A stretch of DNA of 64,000 nt from Streptomyces sp. SolWspMP-5a-2. GTDB lineage: Bacteria > Actinomycetota > Actinomycetes > Streptomycetales > Streptomycetaceae. Where the stretch lies: the NCBI RefSeq assembly GCF_900091845.1, contig NZ_FMCI01000350.1:1-64000 (forward strand), written 5' to 3'. The notes beneath the pieces were generated by a model that saw nothing but the letters and a program-made list of their open reading frames with translations, was not told where the DNA came from and made no database searches. Each line of letters begins with the position of its first letter. Within the stretch, counting starts at the first letter, position 1. Positions 513 through 9,198 of this stretch are shown here, piece by piece. Both the position numbers and the translations under genes were made by a program.

Positions 513-1742
513 ATGGCACAGCTGCGACAAGAGGTCGACCCGGAAGAGGTCGGGCTGGACGCGAAGGCGCTCGCCCGCCTCGACCGGCACCTGGCCACGG
601 AGGTCGACGAAGGGCGCCTGCCCGGCTTCCTGGTGGCCGTGGCCCGCGGCGGCCGCGTCGCCCACCTCACCGCGTACGGCCACCGCGACCTCGCGGCCGG
701 GACGCCCGTGGAGACGGACACCCTCTGGCGGATGTACTCGATGACCAAGCCGGTCACCACGGTGGCCGCGCTCACGCTCGTCGAGGAGGGGCGCCTCGGT
801 CTCGACGACCCGGTCCACGACCACCTCCCGGCCTTCGCCGACGCCCAGGTGTACGACGGCGGTTCGGGCAGCGGGCTGCGCACCCGCCCGGCGGCGCGGC
901 CGCCGCTGATCCGGCACCTGATGACCCACACCGCGGGCCTGACCTTCGCCTTCTACCACACCCACCCGGTCGACGCCCGCTACCGGGAGGAGGGGCTCGA
1001 CTCGTCGGTGCGGCCCGGCACCGACCTCGCCGGGACCGTCGACGTCTACGCGGGCCTGCCCCTGCAGTTCGAGCCGGGCACCCAGTGGAACTACTCGGTC
1101 GCCACCAACGTGCTGGGCCGGGTCCTGGAAGTGGTGAGCGGGCAGCCGCTCGACGTGTTCCTCGCCGAGCGGGTCTTCCGGCCGCTCGGCATGACCGACG
1201 CGGGCTTCGAGGTCTCCGCCGAACAGGCGCCCAGGCTCTCCGAGTTGTACGGCGAGACCGGTGACGGCGGCATCGAGCGGATCGCCGGGCTGCCGCTGCA
1301 CGGGCGGCCCCGGTTCCTGTCCGGCAGCGGCGGGATGGTCGCCTCCGCGCACGACATGCACCGCTTCTCCGAACTGCTGCGCCGCCGCGGCGAACTCGAC
1401 GGCGCCCGGCTGCTCGCGCCCGCGACCGTCGACCTGATGACGAGCAACCACCTGCCCGACGGCGCCGACCTGCGCGCCTTCGGCAGCAGACCGGCCCACG
1501 ACGAACCCGGCAACGAGGGCGTGGGCTTCGGCCTCGGCGTCTCCGTGGTGATCGACCCGTCCCGCACCAAGGCGCCCACCGGGCTCGGCACCTACGGCTG
1601 GAGCGGGGTGGCGACGACGACGTTCTGGGTCGACCCGAGCCGCGACCTGAGCGTGCAGTTCTACACGCAGGTGCGGCCGAAGTCGTCGCACACGCTCTAC
1701 CCGGACATCAAACGGCTGGTCCACGAGGCCGTCCTGGACTGA
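513..1742 (+). CDS. serine hydrolase (beta-lactamase/esterase family, class C-like)
   Basis: A 409-residue serine hydrolase of the Beta-lactamase (PF00144) family, which covers EstB-type esterases, D-amino-acid peptidases and class C beta-lactamases. The nucleophile motif S-x-x-K is visible as SMTK (Ser76, Lys79), followed by a Tyr motif, NYSV, near residue 193. The length fits the esterase members. No signal peptide is seen, so it is probably cytoplasmic, which argues against a true beta-lactamase. The start is supported by a GGAGGAG ribosome site about five bases upstream of the ATG. It reads alone, between an MFS gene and the divergent-sense pterin cluster. Confidence 0.85.
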   Translation: MAQLRQEVDPEEVGLDAKALARLDRHLATEVDEGRLPGFLVAVARGGRVAHLTAYGHRDLAAGTPVETDTLWRMYSMTKPVTTVAALTLVEEGRLGLDDPVHDHLPAFADAQVYDGGSGSGLRTRPAARPPLIRHLMTHTAGLTFAFYHTHPVDARYREEGLDSSVRPGTDLAGTVDVYAGLPLQFEPGTQWNYSVATNVLGRVLEVVSGQPLDVFLAERVFRPLGMTDAGFEVSAEQAPRLSELYGETGDGGIERIAGLPLHGRPRFLSGSGGMVASAHDMHRFSELLRRRGELDGARLLAPATVDLMTSNHLPDGADLRAFGSRPAHDEPGNEGVGFGLGVSVVIDPSRTKAPTGLGTYGWSGVATTTFWVDPSRDLSVQFYTQVRPKSSHTLYPDIKRLVHEAVLD

Positions 1743-1768: not shown

Positions 1769-2428
1769 TCAGGACAGGTGGGCGACCGCGTCCAGGTGCG
1801 GCAGGTGGTGGTCGAGCCGCTCCCGCTTGGTGCGCAGGTAGGTGATGTTGCTCTCGCACGGCGGTATCAACAGCGGCACGGTCTCCGCCACTTCGATGCC
1901 GTGCCGCACCAACGCCTCGCGCTTGCGCGGGTTGTTGGACATCAGCCGCACCGAGTTCACGCCGAGGTCGTGCAGCATCCCGGCCGCCACCCCGTAGTCC
2001 CGGGAGTCGACCGGCAGCCCGAGGGCCAGGTTCGCCTCGACGGTGTCCAGGCCCTCGGCCTGCAGGGCCATCGCCCGCAGCTTGCCGAGCAGCCCGATGC
2101 CGCGCCCCTCGTGGCCGCGCAGGTAGACGACGACGCCCGCGCCCTCGGCGACCACGGCCTTGAGCGCGAAGGCCAGTTGGTCCCCGCACTCGCAGTGCTG
2201 GGACCCGAACGCGTCACCGGTCAGGCACTCCGAGTGGAGCCGGGTCAGCACGCCCTCCGCGCCGATGTCGCCGTGCACGAGGGCCACCTGCTCGTCGCCC
2301 CGGTCGTGGTCGAGGTATCCCACCGCCCGGAATTCCCCGTACACGGTGGGCAGCGGCGCATTCACGATGCGCTCCACGCCCGTGCGCTGCGCTGACTTCT
2401 TGCCGAGTACGCCGACTTTTTCTGTCAT
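1769..2428 (-). CDS. ribA: GTP cyclohydrolase II-like protein (FAPy-forming type)
   Basis: A 219-residue stand-alone RibA homologue without the RibB half of the bifunctional riboflavin enzyme. The zinc ligands are present (C68 and the CECG motif with C79, C81), as are the GRGIGL loop and the SNNPRKREAL region. The residue that is Tyr in E. coli RibA (KLRAYALQ) is Met120 here (KLRAMALQ). In S. coelicolor SCO6655 this substitution is known to give the formamidopyrimidine FAPy instead of the deformylated product. The ATG at 2428 is preceded by AGGA eight bases upstream; a longer in-frame extension to 2557 lacks RibA character. The gene diverges from a creatininase-family gene, with only 38 bases between the start codons. 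It probably supplies a pyrimidine precursor to the neighbouring cluster rather than riboflavin, which is inference. Confidence 0.88.
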   Translation of the reverse strand: MTEKVGVLGKKSAQRTGVERIVNAPLPTVYGEFRAVGYLDHDRGDEQVALVHGDIGAEGVLTRLHSECLTGDAFGSQHCECGDQLAFALKAVVAEGAGVVVYLRGHEGRGIGLLGKLRAMALQAEGLDTVEANLALGLPVDSRDYGVAAGMLHDLGVNSVRLMSNNPRKREALVRHGIEVAETVPLLIPPCESNITYLRTKRERLDHHLPHLDAVAHLS

Positions 2429-2466
2429 GATCTGATTCCTAAACAGAGACGAAAGGCCGTGGAGAA

Positions 2467-3243
2467 ATGAGTGGTTCGGGCGCGCGTGCGGCGGCGGACG
2501 GTCTGGTGCCGGCGGACACCACGGAAGAGGTACGGACCAGGGCGGCGGGCGTCTCAACGCAGGTCGCCGTTCTTCCGGTGGGGAGCTTCGAGCAGCACGG
2601 TCCGTTCCTTCCGCTGGCGACCGACACCCTGGTCGCCTGTGCCGTGGCCCGCGAGATAGCCGCGGCGTTCCCGGTGCACCTCCTTCCTCCGGTGACCGTC
2701 TCCTGTTCGCACGAGCACGCGGACTGGCCGGGCACGGTGAGCATCTCCGCCGTGACGCTGCACGCGGTGGTCACGGACATCGCCGCCTCGCTCCGCCGCT
2801 CCGGCGTCGACGCCCTGGTGGTGGTGAACGGGCACGGCGGGAACTACGTGCTGGGCAACGTCGTCCAGGAGGCCACGGCGCGCGGCGAACGGATGGCGCT
2901 CTTCCCCGCCGCCGAGGACTGGGAGGCGGCCAGGGGGCGGGCGGGGGTGGTCACCTCGCTCCTCACCGACATGCACGCCGGGGAGATCGAGACCTCCGTC
3001 CTGCTGCACGCCCATCCCGAATTCCTCCGATCCGGATATGAGACCTCGGATTTCGTCGCGGACGACCGGCGCCATCTCCTGACCCTCGGTATGTCCGGCT
3101 ATACCGATTCGGGCGTCATCGGGCGCCCTTCGCTCGGCTCGGCGGAAAAGGGGAAGGAACTCCTGGCGAGCCTGGTGGATTCCTTCGGGGCGTATTTCTC
3201 GCTGCTGTCGGAGCCGGAGACGGGAAGCGCGCGGCGCGGCTGA
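2467..3243 (+). CDS. creatininase-family amidohydrolase (candidate FAPy deformylase)
   Basis: A 258-residue metal-dependent hydrolase of the creatininase family. The metal-binding signatures are visible: GSFEQHGP near residue 39, the Asp of LATDTL, NGHGGN near 122 and HAGEIETS near 176. The family includes creatininase, MftE peptidase and archaeal ArfB, which deformylates the FAPy product of GTP cyclohydrolase III. Because its divergent partner is a FAPy-type RibA, an ArfB-like deformylase role is the most economical reading; a different amidase activity is possible. The start has GTGGAGAA directly before the ATG. The 3' end overlaps the convergent flippase gene by 145 bases. Confidence 0.8.
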   Translation: MSGSGARAAADGLVPADTTEEVRTRAAGVSTQVAVLPVGSFEQHGPFLPLATDTLVACAVAREIAAAFPVHLLPPVTVSCSHEHADWPGTVSISAVTLHAVVTDIAASLRRSGVDALVVVNGHGGNYVLGNVVQEATARGERMALFPAAEDWEAARGRAGVVTSLLTDMHAGEIETSVLLHAHPEFLRSGYETSDFVADDRRHLLTLGMSGYTDSGVIGRPSLGSAEKGKELLASLVDSFGAYFSLLSEPETGSARRG

Positions 3244-4613
3244 GCGCCGTCGGGTTCCGGTGCCGCGGCGGGCGTCCCCGAACCCGCCCGCAGAGCGGCG
3301 GCCCAGCGGACGACGAGGACGGCGGCGCCGGGCAGCGCGGCCACGAAGCTGAGCACCCCGTAGACGACGGCGACCGCGAGACCGCTGCCGGCGCCCAGGC
3401 CCGCGGCCCCGAACGCCCAGGCGGTGACGCCCTCCCGGGGCCCCCAGCCGCCGACGTTCAGCGGCAGGCCCATCGCGACCAGCGCGAGCACGGCGATCGG
3501 CAGCAGCAGCGCGACCGGGGCGTCCGACCCGGCGACCCGGGCCGCGACCACGAACATCCCGACGTGGCCCGCGAGCACCAGCAGCGACGAGACGACGACA
3601 CCGGGCGCGTTGCGGCGGGACAGCAGCCCCTCGCGGGCCTCGGCGAGCGTCGCGCGCAGCACCCGGCCACGGCGTGCGGGCGTTCCGTTCATGCGCAGCG
3701 CGAGACCGACCGCGAGCACCCCGACGGCCGCGAGGCCGAGCAGCGGCGCGAGATCGCGGGCCTCGGTGCGGACCGGGGACGGCAGGGTGAGCAGGACGAT
3801 CAGCCCGACGCCCGCCAACGCGACCTGTCCCGCGGCCCGTTCGAGGACGACGGTGCGCACGCCCCTTCCGAGGTCGCCCTCGCTGCGCCCGTGCCGGACG
3901 GCCCGGTGGACGTCGCCGAGGACCCCGCCGGGCAGCGCCGCGTTCAGGAACAGCGCCCGGTAGTAGTCGGCGACGGCGGCGCCGAGGGGCAGCCGCAGCC
4001 GCAGTCCCCGGGCGACGAGCGCCCACCGCCAGGCGCTGAGCACGGTGGTGGCGAGTCCGATGGCGAGGGCGAGAAGCAGGGTCGGGGTGTCGATGCGGCG
4101 CAGTCCGTCGAGGAAGACGCCGGTGCCGAGCCGCCAGAGCAGCACGGCGAGGATGACGATCCCGGCGACGGACCCGAGGTGGGTGCGCACGGCACGGGAG
4201 TCGAACCGCCCGAGCGCGCTCCGCAGCACCGCCCGCGCCCGCGATCCACCGGCGGCGCCCTCCGCCCGGACGCCGTCGCCGGTCGCTCCGGTGCGCGCGG
4301 GGGCAGGGGCGGGCGCCGACGCCGTGGGCCCCATCGCCGTGGGCCCCATCGCCGTACCCGTCGCCCGGACCGCCGTCACCGTGTCCGCCGCCGTGGCCGT
4401 GTCCGCCGCCGTGGCCGTGTCCGCCGCCGTGGCCGTCACCGACACCGACACCGTCGCCGGGAGTTCGGCCCTCGCCGACGCCGGGGCCGCAGCGGTCACC
4501 CTCGCTCCCGCCGGGACCGTCGTCGTGCGGACCGCCGCCGTCGGGAGGCTGATCGTGCGGCCCGAGCGTGCGTCGCGGCGTACTCCGCGTGCCGTCACCG
4601 TCCGTACGCTCAT
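3099..4613 (-). CDS. lysylphosphatidylglycerol-synthase-like flippase (UPF0104 membrane protein)
   Basis: A 504-residue integral membrane protein. After a roughly 130-residue low-complexity, Ala/Thr/Pro-rich cytoplasmic N-terminus comes a multi-pass region (residues about 140-440) resembling the LPG_synthase_TM / AglD domain, with the characteristic NVGGWGPREG and ALFLNAALPGGVLGD motifs. Such proteins flip or modify lipid-linked glycans. The N-terminus contains three ATAADT repeats encoded by a tandem 18-bp DNA repeat. The ATG overlaps the methyltransferase stop (ATGA), which fixes the start and implies coupling. The C-terminal tail runs 145 bases into the convergent creatininase gene. With a glycosyltransferase and a CDP-alcohol transferase nearby, a role in moving a lipid-linked product is plausible. 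Confidence 0.75.
   Translation of the reverse strand: MSVRTVTARGVRRDARSGRTISLPTAAVRTTTVPAGARVTAAAPASARAELPATVSVSVTATAADTATAADTATAADTVTAVRATGTAMGPTAMGPTASAPAPAPARTGATGDGVRAEGAAGGSRARAVLRSALGRFDSRAVRTHLGSVAGIVILAVLLWRLGTGVFLDGLRRIDTPTLLLALAIGLATTVLSAWRWALVARGLRLRLPLGAAVADYYRALFLNAALPGGVLGDVHRAVRHGRSEGDLGRGVRTVVLERAAGQVALAGVGLIVLLTLPSPVRTEARDLAPLLGLAAVGVLAVGLALRMNGTPARRGRVLRATLAEAREGLLSRRNAPGVVVSSLLVLAGHVGMFVVAARVAGSDAPVALLLPIAVLALVAMGLPLNVGGWGPREGVTAWAFGAAGLGAGSGLAVAVVYGVLSFVAALPGAAVLVVRWAAALRAGSGTPAAAPEPDGAQPRRALPVSGSDSSEKYAPKESTRLARSSFPFSAEPSEGRPMTPESV
4321..4434. repeat. short in-frame tandem repeats (15-bp x2 and 18-bp x3)
   Basis: Two exact copies of a 15-base unit (GCCGTGGGCCCCATC) begin at 4321. 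Three exact copies of an 18-base unit (GTGTCCGCCGCCGTGGCC) fill 4381-4434. Both units are multiples of three and lie inside the flippase gene, where they lengthen its disordered N-terminal region. Copy number is therefore free to vary without breaking the frame. Confidence 0.9.
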
Positions 4614-5656
4614 GCCGGGCCGCCCGGACGGGTGAGGGCGAGCAGGTCGCTGTGGTGGACCGTGACGTGGAGTTCACCGGCCTCGCAGGCCGCGAGGCGC
4701 TCGCGCAGATACGGTTCCGCACGGTCCTTGAGGTCGGGGCGCTGCTCGACGGCCGCGCCGACCCAGCCGCGCAGCCACTGCGCGGTCAGCGCGGCCTCGT
4801 CGGGGCCGAGCCGCCAAGCGCTCGGGACGACGTGCACGGTCGCGCCGCGTTCGGAGAACGCCTCGCAGGTGGCGGTGACCGCGTCCGGGCCGAGCAGGCC
4901 GCCGCGCCGCTGGTGGGCGTTGAACGCCTCGGCCAGCTCGGCGTCGAGCGGGTCGCCGGGGCCGATGTCGACGCGGCCCGCCACCGACAGGGTGAGCAGG
5001 GCCGGGCAGCCCGCGCCGGTGCAGGCGTCGGCGAGGATGTCGACCTCGGCCCGGGTGAGGACGTCGAGCAGCGCGGACGCCGTCACCAGGGAGGCGCCGA
5101 GCAGCGCCTCCGGGGTGAGCCGGGCGACGTCGCCGCGCCGGGTCTCGACGGTGACCCGGCTGCCGTCGGCGGCCGACCTCGGGGAGGCGACGGCCGCGAA
5201 GTGCAGCAGGTAGGGGTCGCGGTCGTGCAGCACCCAGTGCTGGGGGCCGTCCAGGCGCGGGGCCAGCCAGCGGCCCATGGAGCCGGTGCCGCAGCCGAGG
5301 TCGTGGACGACGAGACCGGAGCGGCCCGGCAGGTTGGCGAGCCGGATGCGCAGCGGGTCGAGCAGTTCGCCGGCGCGGGCGTCCGCGTCGGCGGGCTCGC
5401 GCAGTTGGAGCCACTCCGGCGCGTACCGGGGCTGGTCGTCGGGCCCGTCCTCGCGCAGCCGCACGGTGGCCCGCTCCCCCGGGCGCGGTGTGGGGCCCGC
5501 GCCCGGGATCACGCCGTCACCGGATCCTGCCTCCGGTGTCGGCGGCGCCAGCTCCTGCTCGGTGGGGAGTGCGGTCCCGGCGGCGTCGGTGACGTCGCGG
5601 GGACCGGGCTGGCCGGGGATCTGCCCGGCCTGCTGCGTCACGGCCGTTTCCCTCAT
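4610..5656 (-). CDS. class I SAM-dependent methyltransferase
   Basis: A 348-residue protein with a roughly 100-residue Pro/Gly-rich N-terminus followed by a Rossmann methyltransferase domain. The SAM-binding motif I is visible as VHDLGCGTGSMG near residue 123, and an acidic motif II as LHDRDPY some 30 residues later. The methyl acceptor is not evident. Translation is coupled on both sides: its ATG overlaps the glycosyltransferase stop (ATGA at 5656-5653) and its stop overlaps the flippase ATG. It therefore belongs to one operon running dehydrogenase, PTPS-like, glycosyltransferase, methyltransferase, flippase. Confidence 0.85.
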   Translation of the reverse strand: MRETAVTQQAGQIPGQPGPRDVTDAAGTALPTEQELAPPTPEAGSGDGVIPGAGPTPRPGERATVRLREDGPDDQPRYAPEWLQLREPADADARAGELLDPLRIRLANLPGRSGLVVHDLGCGTGSMGRWLAPRLDGPQHWVLHDRDPYLLHFAAVASPRSAADGSRVTVETRRGDVARLTPEALLGASLVTASALLDVLTRAEVDILADACTGAGCPALLTLSVAGRVDIGPGDPLDAELAEAFNAHQRRGGLLGPDAVTATCEAFSERGATVHVVPSAWRLGPDEAALTAQWLRGWVGAAVEQRPDLKDRAEPYLRERLAACEAGELHVTVHHSDLLALTRPGGPA

Positions 5657-6837
5657 GCCGCCCTCCGGGGTTCGCTCGGTAGCCGTCCCAGCACTCCGGC
5701 GAGGCTGCGGGCGGTGGTCGCCCAGCCGTCCAGCGCGGCGCGCCTGCCGCGGGCCGCGGCCTTGAGGCGGCGGCGCACGTCGGCCTCGCCGAACCAGCCG
5801 CGCAGCTCGTTGGCGATCGCGGCGGGGTTCTCCGGCGGGACGAGGATGCCGGGCACGCCGCCGTCGGGGGCGCGGCCGACCGCCTCGGGCAGTCCGCCGA
5901 CGTCGGTGGCGAGGACCGGGATGCCCCGGGCCAGGGCCTCGGTGACGGCCATGCCGTAGGTCTCCGCGTAGGAGGTGAGGACCATGAGGTCGGCGGCGGC
6001 GTAGCTGGCGTCGAGCGCGGCGCCCGCCTGCGCCCCGGCCAGGTGGATGCGGTCCTGGAGGCCGTGCGTGCGGATGAGTCCGCGCAGGTGGCCGACGTAG
6101 TTGGGGTCCAGGGTGAGGGCGCCGACGCAGACGCAGCTCCACGGCAGGTCGGCCGCCGCCGCGAGGGCCTCGACCAGCCGGTGCTGACCCTTGCGCGGGG
6201 TGACGGCGGCGACGCACAGCAGCCGCGAGACGCCGTCGGTGCCGGAGGCGAGGGGCGCGATGTCGGCGCCGGGCGCCGCGACGTGGACGCGCTCGGGGGC
6301 GAGTCCGTGGTGGGAGACGAGGCGGCGGACCGCCCAGTCGCTGGTGGCGATGACGGCGGGGGCGGCCCGCAGCACCTCCCGCTCGCGCGCGTCCAGTTCC
6401 GCGGCGACGGCGGGCTCCAGGCCCGTCTCGTCGCCGAGCGGCAGGTGGACGAGGACGGCGAGGCGCAGCCTGGACGCCTCGGGGACGACGACCTCGGGGA
6501 CGCCGCAGGCGACGATGCCGTCGATCAGGACGACGGTGTCGTCGGGGAACTCGGCCAGGACGCGGGCGAGTTCACCGCGGGCGGCGGCCGAGGGGCGCGG
6601 CCAGGAGCCGTCCACCGCGTGCTTGTGGACCTGCCAGCCGAAGCCGGGGAGGTCGAGGCAGATGCGGCGGTCGTAGGCGTTGCCGCCGCTGGGCACGGCC
6701 GGGTCGTCGATCCCGCCGGGCAGGACGAAGTGCACGGAGTTCAGGGACATCCGGAGCACGTTCTCCGCGTTCTTGAGGGTGGCGTGCTGGGCGGGTACGT
6801 ATCCGAGCCGGGCCCGGTCCACGGTCAGGTCGGTCAC
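5653..6837 (-). CDS. GT4-family glycosyltransferase
   Basis: A 394-residue GT-B glycosyltransferase. The C-terminal half carries the family-4 nucleotide-sugar signature with the E-x7-E motif ([14 protein letters not shown], near residue 297), preceded by [10 protein letters not shown] and followed by [14 protein letters not shown]. No membrane segment is seen, so it is cytosolic. The GTG start overlaps the stop of the PTPS-like gene (GTGA), which supports 6837. An internal ATG at [13 protein letters not shown] is an alternative that would remove an atypical 29-residue lead. It probably glycosylates the small molecule or lipid made by this cluster; donor and acceptor are unknown. Confidence 0.85.
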
Positions 6838-7232
6838 AGCGCACGCTCGTAACTCGCCCAGGCGACGTGCGATTCGTGCAGGGTGACGGAGATCCCGGCG
6901 ATGCCGCGGGCGCCCTCGCCGAGCGCGCCCTTGTGGATGCGGTCGGCGATCCGGTCGGCGATGACCTTGGCGAGGAACTCGGTCGAGGTGTTGACGCCGG
7001 CGAACTCGGGTTCGTTGTCGAGGTTCCGGTAGTTCAACTCGCTGGTGACGGCACCGAGTTCCTGGGTGGCCAGGCCGATGTCGACGACGATGCCGTCGTC
7101 GTCCAGCTGCTCGCGGCGGAACGTGGCGTCCACGAGGAACGTCGCTCCGTGCAGGCGCTGCGCGGGTCCGAAGACCTCGCCGCGGAAGCTGTGGGCGATC
7201 ATGATGTGATCGCGGACGGTGACACTGAACAA
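6834..7232 (-). CDS. 6-pyruvoyltetrahydropterin synthase fold protein lacking the catalytic site
   Basis: A 132-residue T-fold protein of the PTPS/QueD family. Active members carry C-x3-H-G-H; here the segment reads AQRLHGATF, so the catalytic Cys is Ala24 and one zinc His is Ala30. The Asp-His pair of the triad (LDH) is replaced by Asn67-Tyr68 in LNYRNL. The zinc His of IAHSF (H14), H28 and the pterin-anchoring Glu120 are kept. Loss of zinc and triad matches what was reported for the S. coelicolor homologue SCO6650, which still binds a pterin-like ligand in its fold. The TTG start has GGAGGG seven to eight bases upstream. It may be a binding protein or catalyse a different reaction in this operon. 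Confidence 0.85.
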
Positions 7233-7347
7233 CGGACGACCCTCCAGGTGCGGAGCCTCTGGTCCCCCTGCTGATCCGTGCCGGGGGTGCCGTGTAGTAC
7301 GGCTGTCGGGTTCCCCTTGTTCAGCCCGGTCTCACTCTTTTCTCAGG

Positions 7348-8319
7348 TCAGGAGTACCGGATCCGGTGACAGAGGGCCGGAATCGCTCCGTCCGCCAGCT
7401 TGGGGAGCACCTCGGGCAGCTCCTCGAAGGCGGACTCGCCGGTGATGAGGGCGTCGAGGGCCGGGTCGGCGAGGAGTTCCAGGGCCAGCGCCATCCGGTC
7501 GGCGTAACTGCGGCTGGGGCGGGCCGGGGAGACGGTGCCGACCTGGCTGCCGCGGATGACCAGGCGCCGGGAGTGGAACGCCTCGCCGAGCGGCAGGGAG
7601 ACCTTGCGGTCGCCGTACCAGGACAGTTCGAGGACGGTGCCCTCGGGCGCGAGGAGTTCGAGGGCGCGGGTGAGGCCCTGTTCGGTGGCGCTGGCGTGCA
7701 CGACGAGGTCGCGGTCGCCGCGGGCGTCGGCGGGCAGCGCGAAGGCGACGCCGAGGGCGCGCGCGACGTCGGCTCGGGCGGGGTCGGCGTCGACCAACTG
7801 GACGCGGACGCCGGGGAACCGGGCGAGCAGCGCGGCGACCGAGCAGCCGACCATGCCGCCGCCGACGACGGTGATCCGGTCGCCGATCAGCGGGGCGGCG
7901 TCCCAGAGCGCGTTGACGGCCGTCTCCACGGTCCCGGCGAGGACGGCGCGGGCGGCGGGCACGTCGTCGGGGACGACGGTGACGGCGGTGGCCGGGACGA
8001 CGTACCGGGTCTGGTGCGGGTGGAGGCAGAAGACCGTGCGTCCGGTCAGCTCCGCCGGGCCCTCCTCGACGACGCCGACGCTGAGGTAGCCGTACTTCAC
8101 CGGGCCGGGGAACTCGCCCTCCTGGAACGGCGCCCGCATGGCCGCGTGCTGGCTCTCGGGGACGCCGCCGCGGAACACCAGGGTCTCGGTGCCCCGGCTG
8201 ACCCCGGAGTACAGCGCGCGCACGACGACGTCGCCCACGCCGGGTTCCGGCAGGTCCGCCTCGCGCAGGGCGCCGTGGCCCGGGCGGTCCAGCCAGAACG
8301 CGTGGGCGGTCCGCTTCAT
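7348..8319 (-). CDS. medium-chain dehydrogenase/reductase without the zinc cysteines
   Basis: A 323-residue MDR-superfamily oxidoreductase. The nucleotide-binding GGGMVG glycine motif lies near residue 175, and the family motif SGVSRGTET stands where zinc alcohol dehydrogenases have their catalytic Cys. That Cys is Ser here and the four-Cys structural zinc lobe is absent, so the protein is probably zinc-independent, like BchC-type or quinone-reductase-type relatives. The ATG is preceded by AGGAGG about six bases upstream. It is the first gene of the minus-strand operon (115 bases before the PTPS-like gene) and diverges from the CDP-alcohol transferase across 108 bases. Confidence 0.8.
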
Positions 8320-8427
8320 CAGACGTCCTCCTGAACGATCGGGAAGTTGTTCACGTACCGAGGTGTGCACAGGCCGCGGACAGTACGCGGCGCTGATCGA
8401 CTCTGTCATACGGCCGGAGGATGTGCG

Positions 8428-9198
8428 GTGGCCCTGAACAACACGTACGACGCGAGGCTGGTCCAGCAGGAGACCGCGGTGGGAGCTGGCGTCCAGATCC
8501 TGCTGCTGGCCCTGCTCGGCTCGGCGATCGGACTGGGGCCCGCGGGCTGGCTGACCGGGATCGCCTTCGCCCTCGCCACCTGGGCGGTCCTCTCCCGGGC
8601 CCTGCACCGCACCAGGCCGCGGTCGTTCGGCCCGGCCAACCGGGTGACACTCGGCCGGGCGACCCTGGTGGGCGGGGTGACGGCGCTGGTCGCGGACTCC
8701 TTCGAGAGCGCGCCGCCGGTCACGGTCTTCGTCGGTCTGACGGCGGTGGCGCTGATCCTGGACGGTGTGGACGGCAAGGTGGCGCGGCGGACCGGCACCT
8801 CGACGCCGCTGGGTGCGCGGTTCGACATGGAGGTCGACGCGTTCCTGATCCTGGTGCTCAGCGTGTACGTCTCGACGAAGCTCGGCCCGTGGGTGCTGCT
8901 GATCGGCGGGATGCGGTACGCGTTCGTGGCGGCGGCGCGCGTCCGGCCGTGGCTGAACGCGCCGCTGCCGCCGAGCACGGCCCGCAAGACGGTGGCGGCC
9001 CTCCAGGGCGTCTTCCTGCTGCTCGCGGCCTCCGGCTACCTGCCGTTCCGGGCCACCTTCGCGGTGACCGCGATCGCCCTGGCCGCGCTGGTCTGGTCGT
9101 TCGGCCGGGACGTGCTGTGGCTGCGCAGGACCTCCAGGGCGGGCGCGGCCGAGGTGGCGCTGATGCTGGAGCTGACCCGCGAGCCGGTGGCGTCCTGA
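8428..9198 (+). CDS. CDP-alcohol phosphatidyltransferase
   Basis: A 256-residue membrane enzyme that joins a CDP-linked lipid or alcohol to a hydroxyl acceptor. The invariant CDP-OH-P signature D-G-x2-A-R-x8-G-x3-D-x3-D is complete, beginning [10 protein letters not shown] near residue 112 and ending at RFDMEVD. About six transmembrane helices surround it. The GTG start has CGGAGG seven bases upstream; longer in-frame extensions lack a ribosome site. It diverges from the dehydrogenase of the pterin-like cluster and is probably part of it, suggesting a phospholipid-anchored product. Confidence 0.88.

Follow-up and report, generated by a model that had tools for sequence, protein, structure and literature searches.

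PTPS-IV is a published class of COG0720 (PMC5041015). Its signature is FGPAQ, and genes of the families PF00925 and PF01872 are reported near a cluster-node of 561 PTPS-IV sequences, with PF00925 labelled FolE2 and the pathway left unnamed in the main text (PMC5445326). The classes PTPS-I, PTPS-II and PTPS-III (QueD, tetrahydrobiopterin and folate) share a motif of Cys or Glu ahead of a complete HGH (PMC5041015). Here we describe a cluster of eight genes, one of them encoding a PTPS-IV protein, at positions 1769-9198 of a 64,000-nucleotide stretch of DNA from Streptomyces sp. SolWspMP-5a-2 (contig NZ_FMCI01000350.1; the whole stretch is referred to as the window). The published neighbours PF00925 and PF01872 recur among the loci analysed here (PMC5445326), while the GT4 glycosyltransferase, methyltransferase, MDR dehydrogenase, CDP-alcohol transferase, flippase, creatininase and export arms go beyond the main-text accounts of PTPS-IV (PMC5445326, PMC5041015). 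A preliminary description of the window, made from its letters alone, had missed that the PTPS belongs to a published class, PTPS-IV, with two known neighbours (PMC5445326, PMC5041015). Among open-licence papers we came across no description of the cluster as a whole, PF00925 and PF01872 being the neighbours already in print. Two proteins of S. coelicolor, SCO6650 and SCO6655, have reportedly been studied singly: SCO6650 is said to lack both zinc and PTPS activity, and SCO6655 is said to stop at the formamidopyrimidine intermediate (FAPy). Both are assigned here to one conserved pathway.

The archaeal riboflavin route ArfA/ArfB/ArfC uses a formyl intermediate, a separate deformylase and a reductase without a deaminase, as we propose for the cluster. 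It differs in that the first enzyme of the cluster is GTP cyclohydrolase II and not GTP cyclohydrolase III, in that the window creatininase scores far under the ArfB cut-off (38.5 vs 180 bits), and in that the cluster continues to glycosyltransferase, methyltransferase and lipid genes. Phospholipid head-group systems, in which a head-group is made, flipped and transferred in this order, employ the same kinds of enzymes as the cluster (CDP-alcohol transferases, MprF-type flippases and LtaS/OpgB/EptC transferases); we know of no phospholipid head-group made by RibA/PTPS-like enzymes. Finally, BrbF, a protein of the creatininase family, is a demonstrated FAPy formamidase of Sinorhizobium and Brucella (PMC9478397). 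It shares its family, and the predicted substrate, with the window creatininase; however, BrbF serves riboflavin synthesis in alphaproteobacteria and the likeness is at the family level (PMC9478397).

Conservation of the eight-gene cluster

The eight genes form one system. All of them are present in each of 20 further loci from the genus (a non-random sample, chosen for large contigs from genomes other than the window's), in the same order wherever the order was listed, and their core recurs in at least five phyla. The preliminary description had allowed that the genes might fail to co-occur across genomes, an outcome which these counts contradict. Each of the eight was found again in the window, the methyltransferase and MDR genes with scores below the Pfam thresholds:

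1769-2428, minus strand: RibA-like GTP cyclohydrolase II (PF00925, 216.8 bits; TIGR00505, 219.9 bits, cut-off 205.85)
2467-3243, plus strand: creatininase-family amidohydrolase, predicted FAPy deformylase (PF02633, 210 bits)
3099-4613, minus strand: flippase-like membrane protein, LPG_synthase_TM (PF03706, 120.9 bits, cut-off 33.4)
4610-5656, minus strand: class I S-adenosylmethionine-dependent methyltransferase (Pfam, 25 bits, below the cut-off of 27; AlphaFold, Foldseek; fusions in relatives)
5653-6837, minus strand: GT4 glycosyltransferase (PF00534, 97.8 bits)
6834-7232, minus strand: PTPS-IV class T-fold protein with a TTG start (PF01242, 84.9 bits; orthologue of SCO6650)
7348-8319, minus strand: BchC-like MDR dehydrogenase (TIGR01202, 54.3 bits, below the cut-off of 291.25; ADH_zinc_N, 28.4 bits, below 31.8)
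8428-9198, plus strand: CDP-alcohol phosphatidyltransferase (PF01066, 49.6 bits, over the cut-off; complete catalytic motif)

The PTPS, GT4, methyltransferase and flippase genes are joined by overlaps of 4 bases each (GTGA for PTPS/GT4, ATGA for GT4/methyltransferase and for methyltransferase/flippase). Four genes are thus connected through three overlaps, and the MDR gene precedes them by 115 bp in the same orientation. The MDR and CDP-alcohol transferase genes are divergent with 108 bp between them, and the creatininase and flippase genes overlap tail to tail. The flippase stays under the cut-off of TIGR00374 (30 bits, cut-off 43.2) and passes PF03706; its N-terminus is of low complexity and its true start may be further in.

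Of 150 genomes of the genus, counting that of the window, 67 carry a PTPS gene. For a broader sample, ten loci (L034-L043) were taken from a tblastn search of plasmids with the PTPS, and species genomes were scanned with the PTPS alignment, which yielded at least 594 stretches, at least 556 of them encoding a relative. The best 80 of the 556 and the ten plasmid loci make up a set of 90 loci, 69 with more than 7.5 kb on both flanks and 21 incomplete. Here and below, the presence of each family was determined by an independent phmmer search with seeds drawn from the cluster itself, fused genes being counted and the gene calls of the loci being rough. By their titles, the 90 loci belong to Actinomycetota, Pseudomonadota, Acidobacteriota, Gemmatimonadota and Myxococcota. 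PTPS was found in 90 of them, MDR in 89, GT4 in 84, methyltransferase in 82, CDP-alcohol transferase in 71, RibD_C reductase in 56, flippase in 51, RibA in 44 and creatininase in 36, followed by sulfatase-type proteins (26), FkbM (13) and cytochrome b561 (5).

A PTPS gene was likewise detected in 22 of 349 genomes of a Pseudomonadota sample, the centre of the sample included, and 20 of these 22 loci were fetched (G247, the centre, and G617 were omitted). They hold MDR (20), GT4 and methyltransferase (19 each), reductase (18), RibA, CDP-alcohol transferase and flippase (9 each, the flippase in the same nine as the transferase), cytochrome b561 and FkbM (6 each), creatininase and sulfatase-type proteins (4 each) and inositol monophosphatase (1). 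By comparison, phmmer found no MDR, methyltransferase, reductase, CDP-alcohol transferase, flippase or creatininase in 20 control regions, each 20 kb long and drawn from 11 of these genomes, the matches there being RibA (2), PTPS, GT4, FkbM and PfkB (1 each). For distant Actinomycetota, an MDR search over 246 genomes gave 22 matches of 37-42% identity for which loci were obtained. PTPS, GT4 and reductase match at E <= 1e-4 within about 4 kb in all 22, and RibA in seven; the scores are low for some of them (19-25 bits for PTPS in five loci, 19 bits for GT4 in another), and the GT4 family is common. In a tree of 88 MDR proteins, the 37 rows from Actinomycetota all fall to the same side of one branch (100/99), which makes recent spread between phyla unlikely as the cause of the shared gene order. 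The named rows of this tree that come nearest to the window genome are from Streptomyces.

The RibA and creatininase genes make up a separate divergent unit, and RibA is lacking from 46 and creatininase from 54 of the 90 loci, some of which are incomplete. They could accordingly be a pair feeding riboflavin synthesis that is merely a neighbour of an independent glycolipid operon. We regard this as very unlikely, given that a RibD_C reductase accompanies the core in 18 of the 20 loci from Pseudomonadota and in all 22 distant loci from Actinomycetota, that each of the 20 genus loci holds both RibA and creatininase, that RibD_C is fused to each of them beside the core, and that no RibD deaminase was matched in 130 loci.

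Proposed pathway and its enzymes

Gene fusions suggest an order of steps within this single system. RibA (GTP cyclohydrolase II) is fused to RibD_C in L136 (5272-6627; Pfam) and, by reading of the sequence, in L137 (9358-10782) and L142 (9276-10817). In all three, no deaminase lies between the domains, the fused gene adjoins genes for MDR and a zinc-type PTPS, and the host is a deep-branching actinobacterium. Creatininase is fused to RibD_C in L071 (Pfam), and GT4 to the methyltransferase in seven loci by phmmer (L068, L071, L153, L154, L158, L160, L161; L160 was run in Pfam, its methyltransferase part falling just under the cut-off). In L063, a single gene combines the CDP-alcohol transferase with a sulfatase-type protein, the sulfatase-type part scoring under the Pfam cut-off. 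These fusions point to GTP opening, deformylation and reduction as consecutive steps, followed by addition of sugar and methyl groups, with the head-group arm being separate; those of GT4 with methyltransferase also back the glycosylation and methylation that had been proposed initially.

From the observed co-occurrence, gene order, fusions and residues we infer the following reactions and product. We give an even chance to the proposal that the product of the cluster is a compound derived from GTP and exported to the cell envelope, with a 2-amino-4-oxo-pyrimidine, or a pterin made from it, as its core. The RibA-like enzyme would open GTP to FAPy, and the creatininase-family enzyme would strip the formyl group, by analogy with BrbF, which performs this reaction elsewhere. 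In most lineages a dedicated RibD_C reductase would then reduce the ribosyl group to a ribityl chain; where its gene is missing, as in the lineage of the window, this step may be done elsewhere (for example by the RibD encoded on contig C33) or skipped. PTPS-IV and the zinc-free MDR dehydrogenase would reshape the compound, GT4 would add a sugar and the methyltransferase would subsequently methylate it. In the window type, the CDP-alcohol transferase would couple the compound to a phosphatidyl group and the flippase would turn it outward, after which an LtaS/EptC/GacH-like protein may, in some lineages, move or trim the phospho-head-group. The alternative to this export by phospholipid and flippase would be export with an OpgH-type glucan synthase.

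The dedicated RibD_C reductase is a member of the pathway in most lineages and has to be added to the first interpretation of the window, which did without it. With the RibD reductase domain of the window genome as query, matches were obtained in 56 of the 90 loci, 18 of the 20 Pseudomonadota loci, 0 of the 20 genus loci and 11 of 12 further loci, and the nearest solved structure to the reductase of L114 is that of a 2,5-diamino-6-ribosylaminopyrimidinone-phosphate reductase (6p8c). With the deaminase domain of the same genome's RibD, matches were obtained in 0 of 130 loci (90 + 20 + 20) and in one (L140) of the 12 further loci, so that the pairing of pyrimidine deaminase with reductase expected of a riboflavin pathway is not seen. 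Moreover, all 30 carrier genomes tested hold at least two RibD_C genes. Together, these findings make a local riboflavin operon unlikely.

FO synthase was found over the cut-off in 9 of the 30 carrier genomes (8/8 Actinomycetota, 1/2 Acidobacteriota, 0/18 Pseudomonadota, 0/2 Gemmatimonadota), which speaks against F420 as the general product. An involvement of PTPS-IV in F420 has been stated as an unpublished result (PMC5041015), and the FO synthase of the eight Actinomycetota and the one Acidobacterium would suit a cluster that branches from the synthesis of flavins or of cofactor F420. Such a branch is highly improbable, as FO synthase does not exceed the cut-off in 21 of the 30 genomes, the deaminase is missing from the 130 loci, and glycosyltransferase, methyltransferase, transferase and flippase would be left unexplained.

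The window PTPS carries the FGPAQ signature, a stretch that is invariant in 11 aligned rows and whose P is at least 93% conserved in 91. It does not conform to the motif of PTPS-I/II/III, lacking the Cys and one His of HGH, and scores 36.7 bits with the QueD model of NCBIfam (cut-off 89.25). SCO6650 (PDB 3d7j) is its orthologue (E=2e-77). An alignment of 11 PTPS sequences (Actinomycetes, Alpha- and Gammaproteobacteria) has 27 invariant columns, and one of 91 sequences has 46 positions conserved to at least 93%; both speak against a dead PTPS. The label 'catalytically stripped' given to the protein earlier is thus apt for the Cys and the His but not for the site as a whole, which is conserved and not decaying, and the alignments indicate that PTPS-IV is retooled and highly conserved. 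Also conserved is a Glu near the C-terminus, E120, which we take to be the pterin anchor that holds the 2-amino-pyrimidinone; with this role, and with no deaminase in the loci, the product would keep its 2-amino group. The PTPS proteins of distant Actinomycetota have three His, including an HxH pair, and no Cys (L021 is incomplete). As these loci keep the zinc-type His beside the same neighbours, the FGPAQ class probably lost a zinc ligand within a pathway that already existed.

Zinc-dependent MDR alcohol dehydrogenases bind their metal through Cys and a GHE motif. In the cluster MDR, SRGTE and KYGY stand, by eye, in place of these ligands, and both motifs are conserved to at least 93% in 91 sequences; the protein also misses the ADH_zinc_N cut-off, in agreement with the zinc-free dehydrogenase of the preliminary description. 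Solved relatives of GT4 include a D-inositol 3-phosphate glycosyltransferase (7qsg). The AlphaFold model of the methyltransferase has a confident class I methyltransferase fold, with generic Foldseek matches.

The cluster RibA qualifies as a GTP cyclohydrolase II, exceeding the TIGR00505 cut-off and carrying the zinc Cys motif CLTGDAFGSQHCECG that marks this enzyme. It has Met120 at a site which we take to be that of E. coli Tyr105, where Tyr presumably marks a GTP cyclohydrolase II that completes the reaction. The window genome (G000, 8.95 Mb) encodes two further RibA paralogues; Tyr occupies this position in L003 (L001 lies outside that alignment). One paralogue is found on contig C33, next to a RibD that has both a reductase and a deaminase domain, and the cluster RibA is therefore an extra copy. 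Lacking the Tyr, the cluster RibA is predicted to stop at FAPy, a prediction based on Met120 and on the work reported for SCO6655, which we assume to be its orthologue with Met120.

The type of RibA correlates with the presence of creatininase. Among the 44 loci with cluster RibA, creatininase accompanies 26 of 26 with Met, His or Cys at this site and 6 of 18 with Tyr (Fisher 9e-7, kinship of the loci being ignored in the co-occurrence tests for RibA type as in those for OpgH). For Actinomycetota only, the figures are 26/26 with non-Tyr RibA vs 0/6 with Tyr RibA (1e-6). Residues E42-x-H44, D53, H123 and E175 of the creatininase are conserved.

Proposed export of the product and points against the pathway

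The window CDP-alcohol transferase has the complete motif D112xxDGxxAR...G129xxxD133xxxD137, conserved to at least 93% in 69 sequences; DxxDGxxARx8GxxxDxxxD is the motif of CDP-alcohol phosphatidyltransferases. Across 110 loci, transferase and flippase tend to go together, with both in 57, neither in 29, the transferase only in 22 and the flippase only in 2. In the Streptomyces version of the cluster, the predicted product is probably linked to a lipid.

A number of observations weigh against the pathway as proposed. No RibD_C reductase was found by phmmer in the 20 genus loci, and the window genome has no close homologue of the cluster reductase (best 33% identity). On a Streptomyces anthocyanicus plasmid (L039, 9001-9396), a PTPS-IV gene occurs without the other cluster genes, near genes for a MEKHLA-domain protein and a cupin. 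In Pseudomonadota and Acidobacteriota, creatininase is found beside Tyr-type RibA (L052, L058, L062, L065, L076, L097), and in four loci it is found without RibA (L069, L090, L120, L071), which suggests that deformylation may not be its sole role. The CDP-alcohol transferase scores below all NCBIfam cut-offs, so that no acceptor is assigned; it is missing in 31 of the 110 loci, including 11 of the 20 from Pseudomonadota, and ten deep-branching actinobacterial loci gave no match for this transferase, the flippase or a sulfatase-type (LtaS-like) protein within 13-18 kb. Lastly, an OpgH/MdoH-type glucan synthase is encoded near 11 of the 110 loci (L034, L044, L057, L071, L097, L146, L150, L152, L155, L156, L162), ten of which are without the transferase (Fisher 8e-6); for the Pseudomonadota loci the proportions are 6/11 without vs 0/9 with the transferase (p=0.014).

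The six loci with Tyr-type RibA and the four without RibA would be accounted for if creatininase and PTPS acted on some other small molecule, for example another cyclic amide that is opened, with the pyrimidine pool only supplying a cofactor. In line with this, the nearest curated model to the window creatininase is that of the peptidase MftE (131 bits, below the cut-off of 172), not ArfB. Such a role is nevertheless distinctly unlikely in view of the match with non-Tyr RibA in Actinomycetota, the creatininase-RibD_C fusion and the existence of a FAPy formamidase in the creatininase family (PMC9478397). Five of the non-actinobacterial creatininases named above are far from that of the window, with 63-86 bits vs 368 and 391 for two actinobacterial ones. 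The sequence of FAPy formation and deformylation put forward in the preliminary description fits in Actinomycetota and fits less well elsewhere, where creatininase occurs with Tyr-type RibA or none.

The loci with glucan synthase bear on the form of the product. It could be a glycosylated and methylated pyrimidine or pterin that is not bound to lipid but free or carried on periplasmic glucans, phosphatidyltransferase and flippase being a separate carrier or an optional means of export. Besides the OpgH/MdoH-type loci, this would agree with MdoG in three loci and with the ten deep-branching loci devoid of lipid-arm matches, one of which (L131, Pfam) has a methyltransferase after GT4. However, two of the three MdoG loci (L153 and L154) also carry lipid genes, CDP-alcohol transferase and flippase are present in 20 of 20 genus loci, L063 has a fusion of the transferase with a sulfatase-type protein, and to our knowledge Actinomycetota do not make periplasmic glucans. 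On balance, we hold a product without lipid to be unlikely. Lipid attachment and flipping, as suggested at first, thus find backing in the pairing of transferase and flippase and in the L063 fusion, but do not extend to the 31 loci that lack the transferase, some with an OpgH-type synthase instead.

Further genes adjoin the lipid version of the pathway. YceI, which binds lipids in the periplasm, is encoded near eight loci, all with CDP-alcohol transferase, and GalU near four, all with both transferase and flippase. Identities were confirmed on representatives (YceI in L161 and L097, GalU in L069 and L158, MdoG in L154 by Pfam, MdoH in L146). The best matches of a sulfatase-type model (L058, pLDDT 83) are LtaS/LtaP, EptC and GacH, enzymes that move phospho-head-groups, with query TM-scores of at most 0.41. 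The OpgH, MdoG, YceI, GalU and sulfatase-type genes all lie outside the window and show coupling of the pathway elsewhere.

Taken more broadly, the cluster may represent an ancient and previously unknown class of bacterial envelope molecules. Its members would be 2-amino-pyrimidines or pterins that carry sugar and methyl groups and arise from GTP through a branch off the first steps of riboflavin synthesis; some lineages would attach them to a phospholipid, and others would export them by means of periplasmic glucan enzymes. We advance this tentatively, rating its chance somewhat short of even. If true, a redox-active or light-absorbing head-group may be displayed on the outer face of the membrane, an idea prompted by the cytochrome b561 and YceI genes that adjoin the cluster in some lineages. 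The class would be widespread, with at least 556 stretches encoding PTPS relatives in one scan of species genomes and at least five phyla. The orphans SCO6650 and SCO6655 would gain a shared pathway, the function of PTPS-IV would become testable, and a new envelope compound is predicted in easily grown strains.

Neighbouring genes and minor observations

Two other features were recorded at the cluster:

513-1742, plus strand: possible accessory gene, for a serine hydrolase with a beta-lactamase fold (PF00144)
2429-2466, no strand: divergent intergenic region of 38 bp between RibA and creatininase, possible shared promoter (sequence)

In 17 of the 20 genus loci the serine hydrolase gene borders the cluster, as it does at the plasmid copy of the cluster in S. 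fungicidicus (L041).

In five loci (L036, L043, L058, L065, L097), the cluster RibA has an N-terminal domain of approximately 150-180 residues that has no Pfam match, and the RibA of L036 as a whole passes NCBIfam NF006456. This extra domain may be a decayed DHBP synthase.

RibD usually has its deaminase domain ahead of the reductase domain. The RibD on contig C33 of the window genome (L203) has the reverse order, and its gene is divergent from that of a Tyr-type RibA. The reductase domain of this RibD is highly similar to the cluster reductases of Actinoplanes and Micromonospora.

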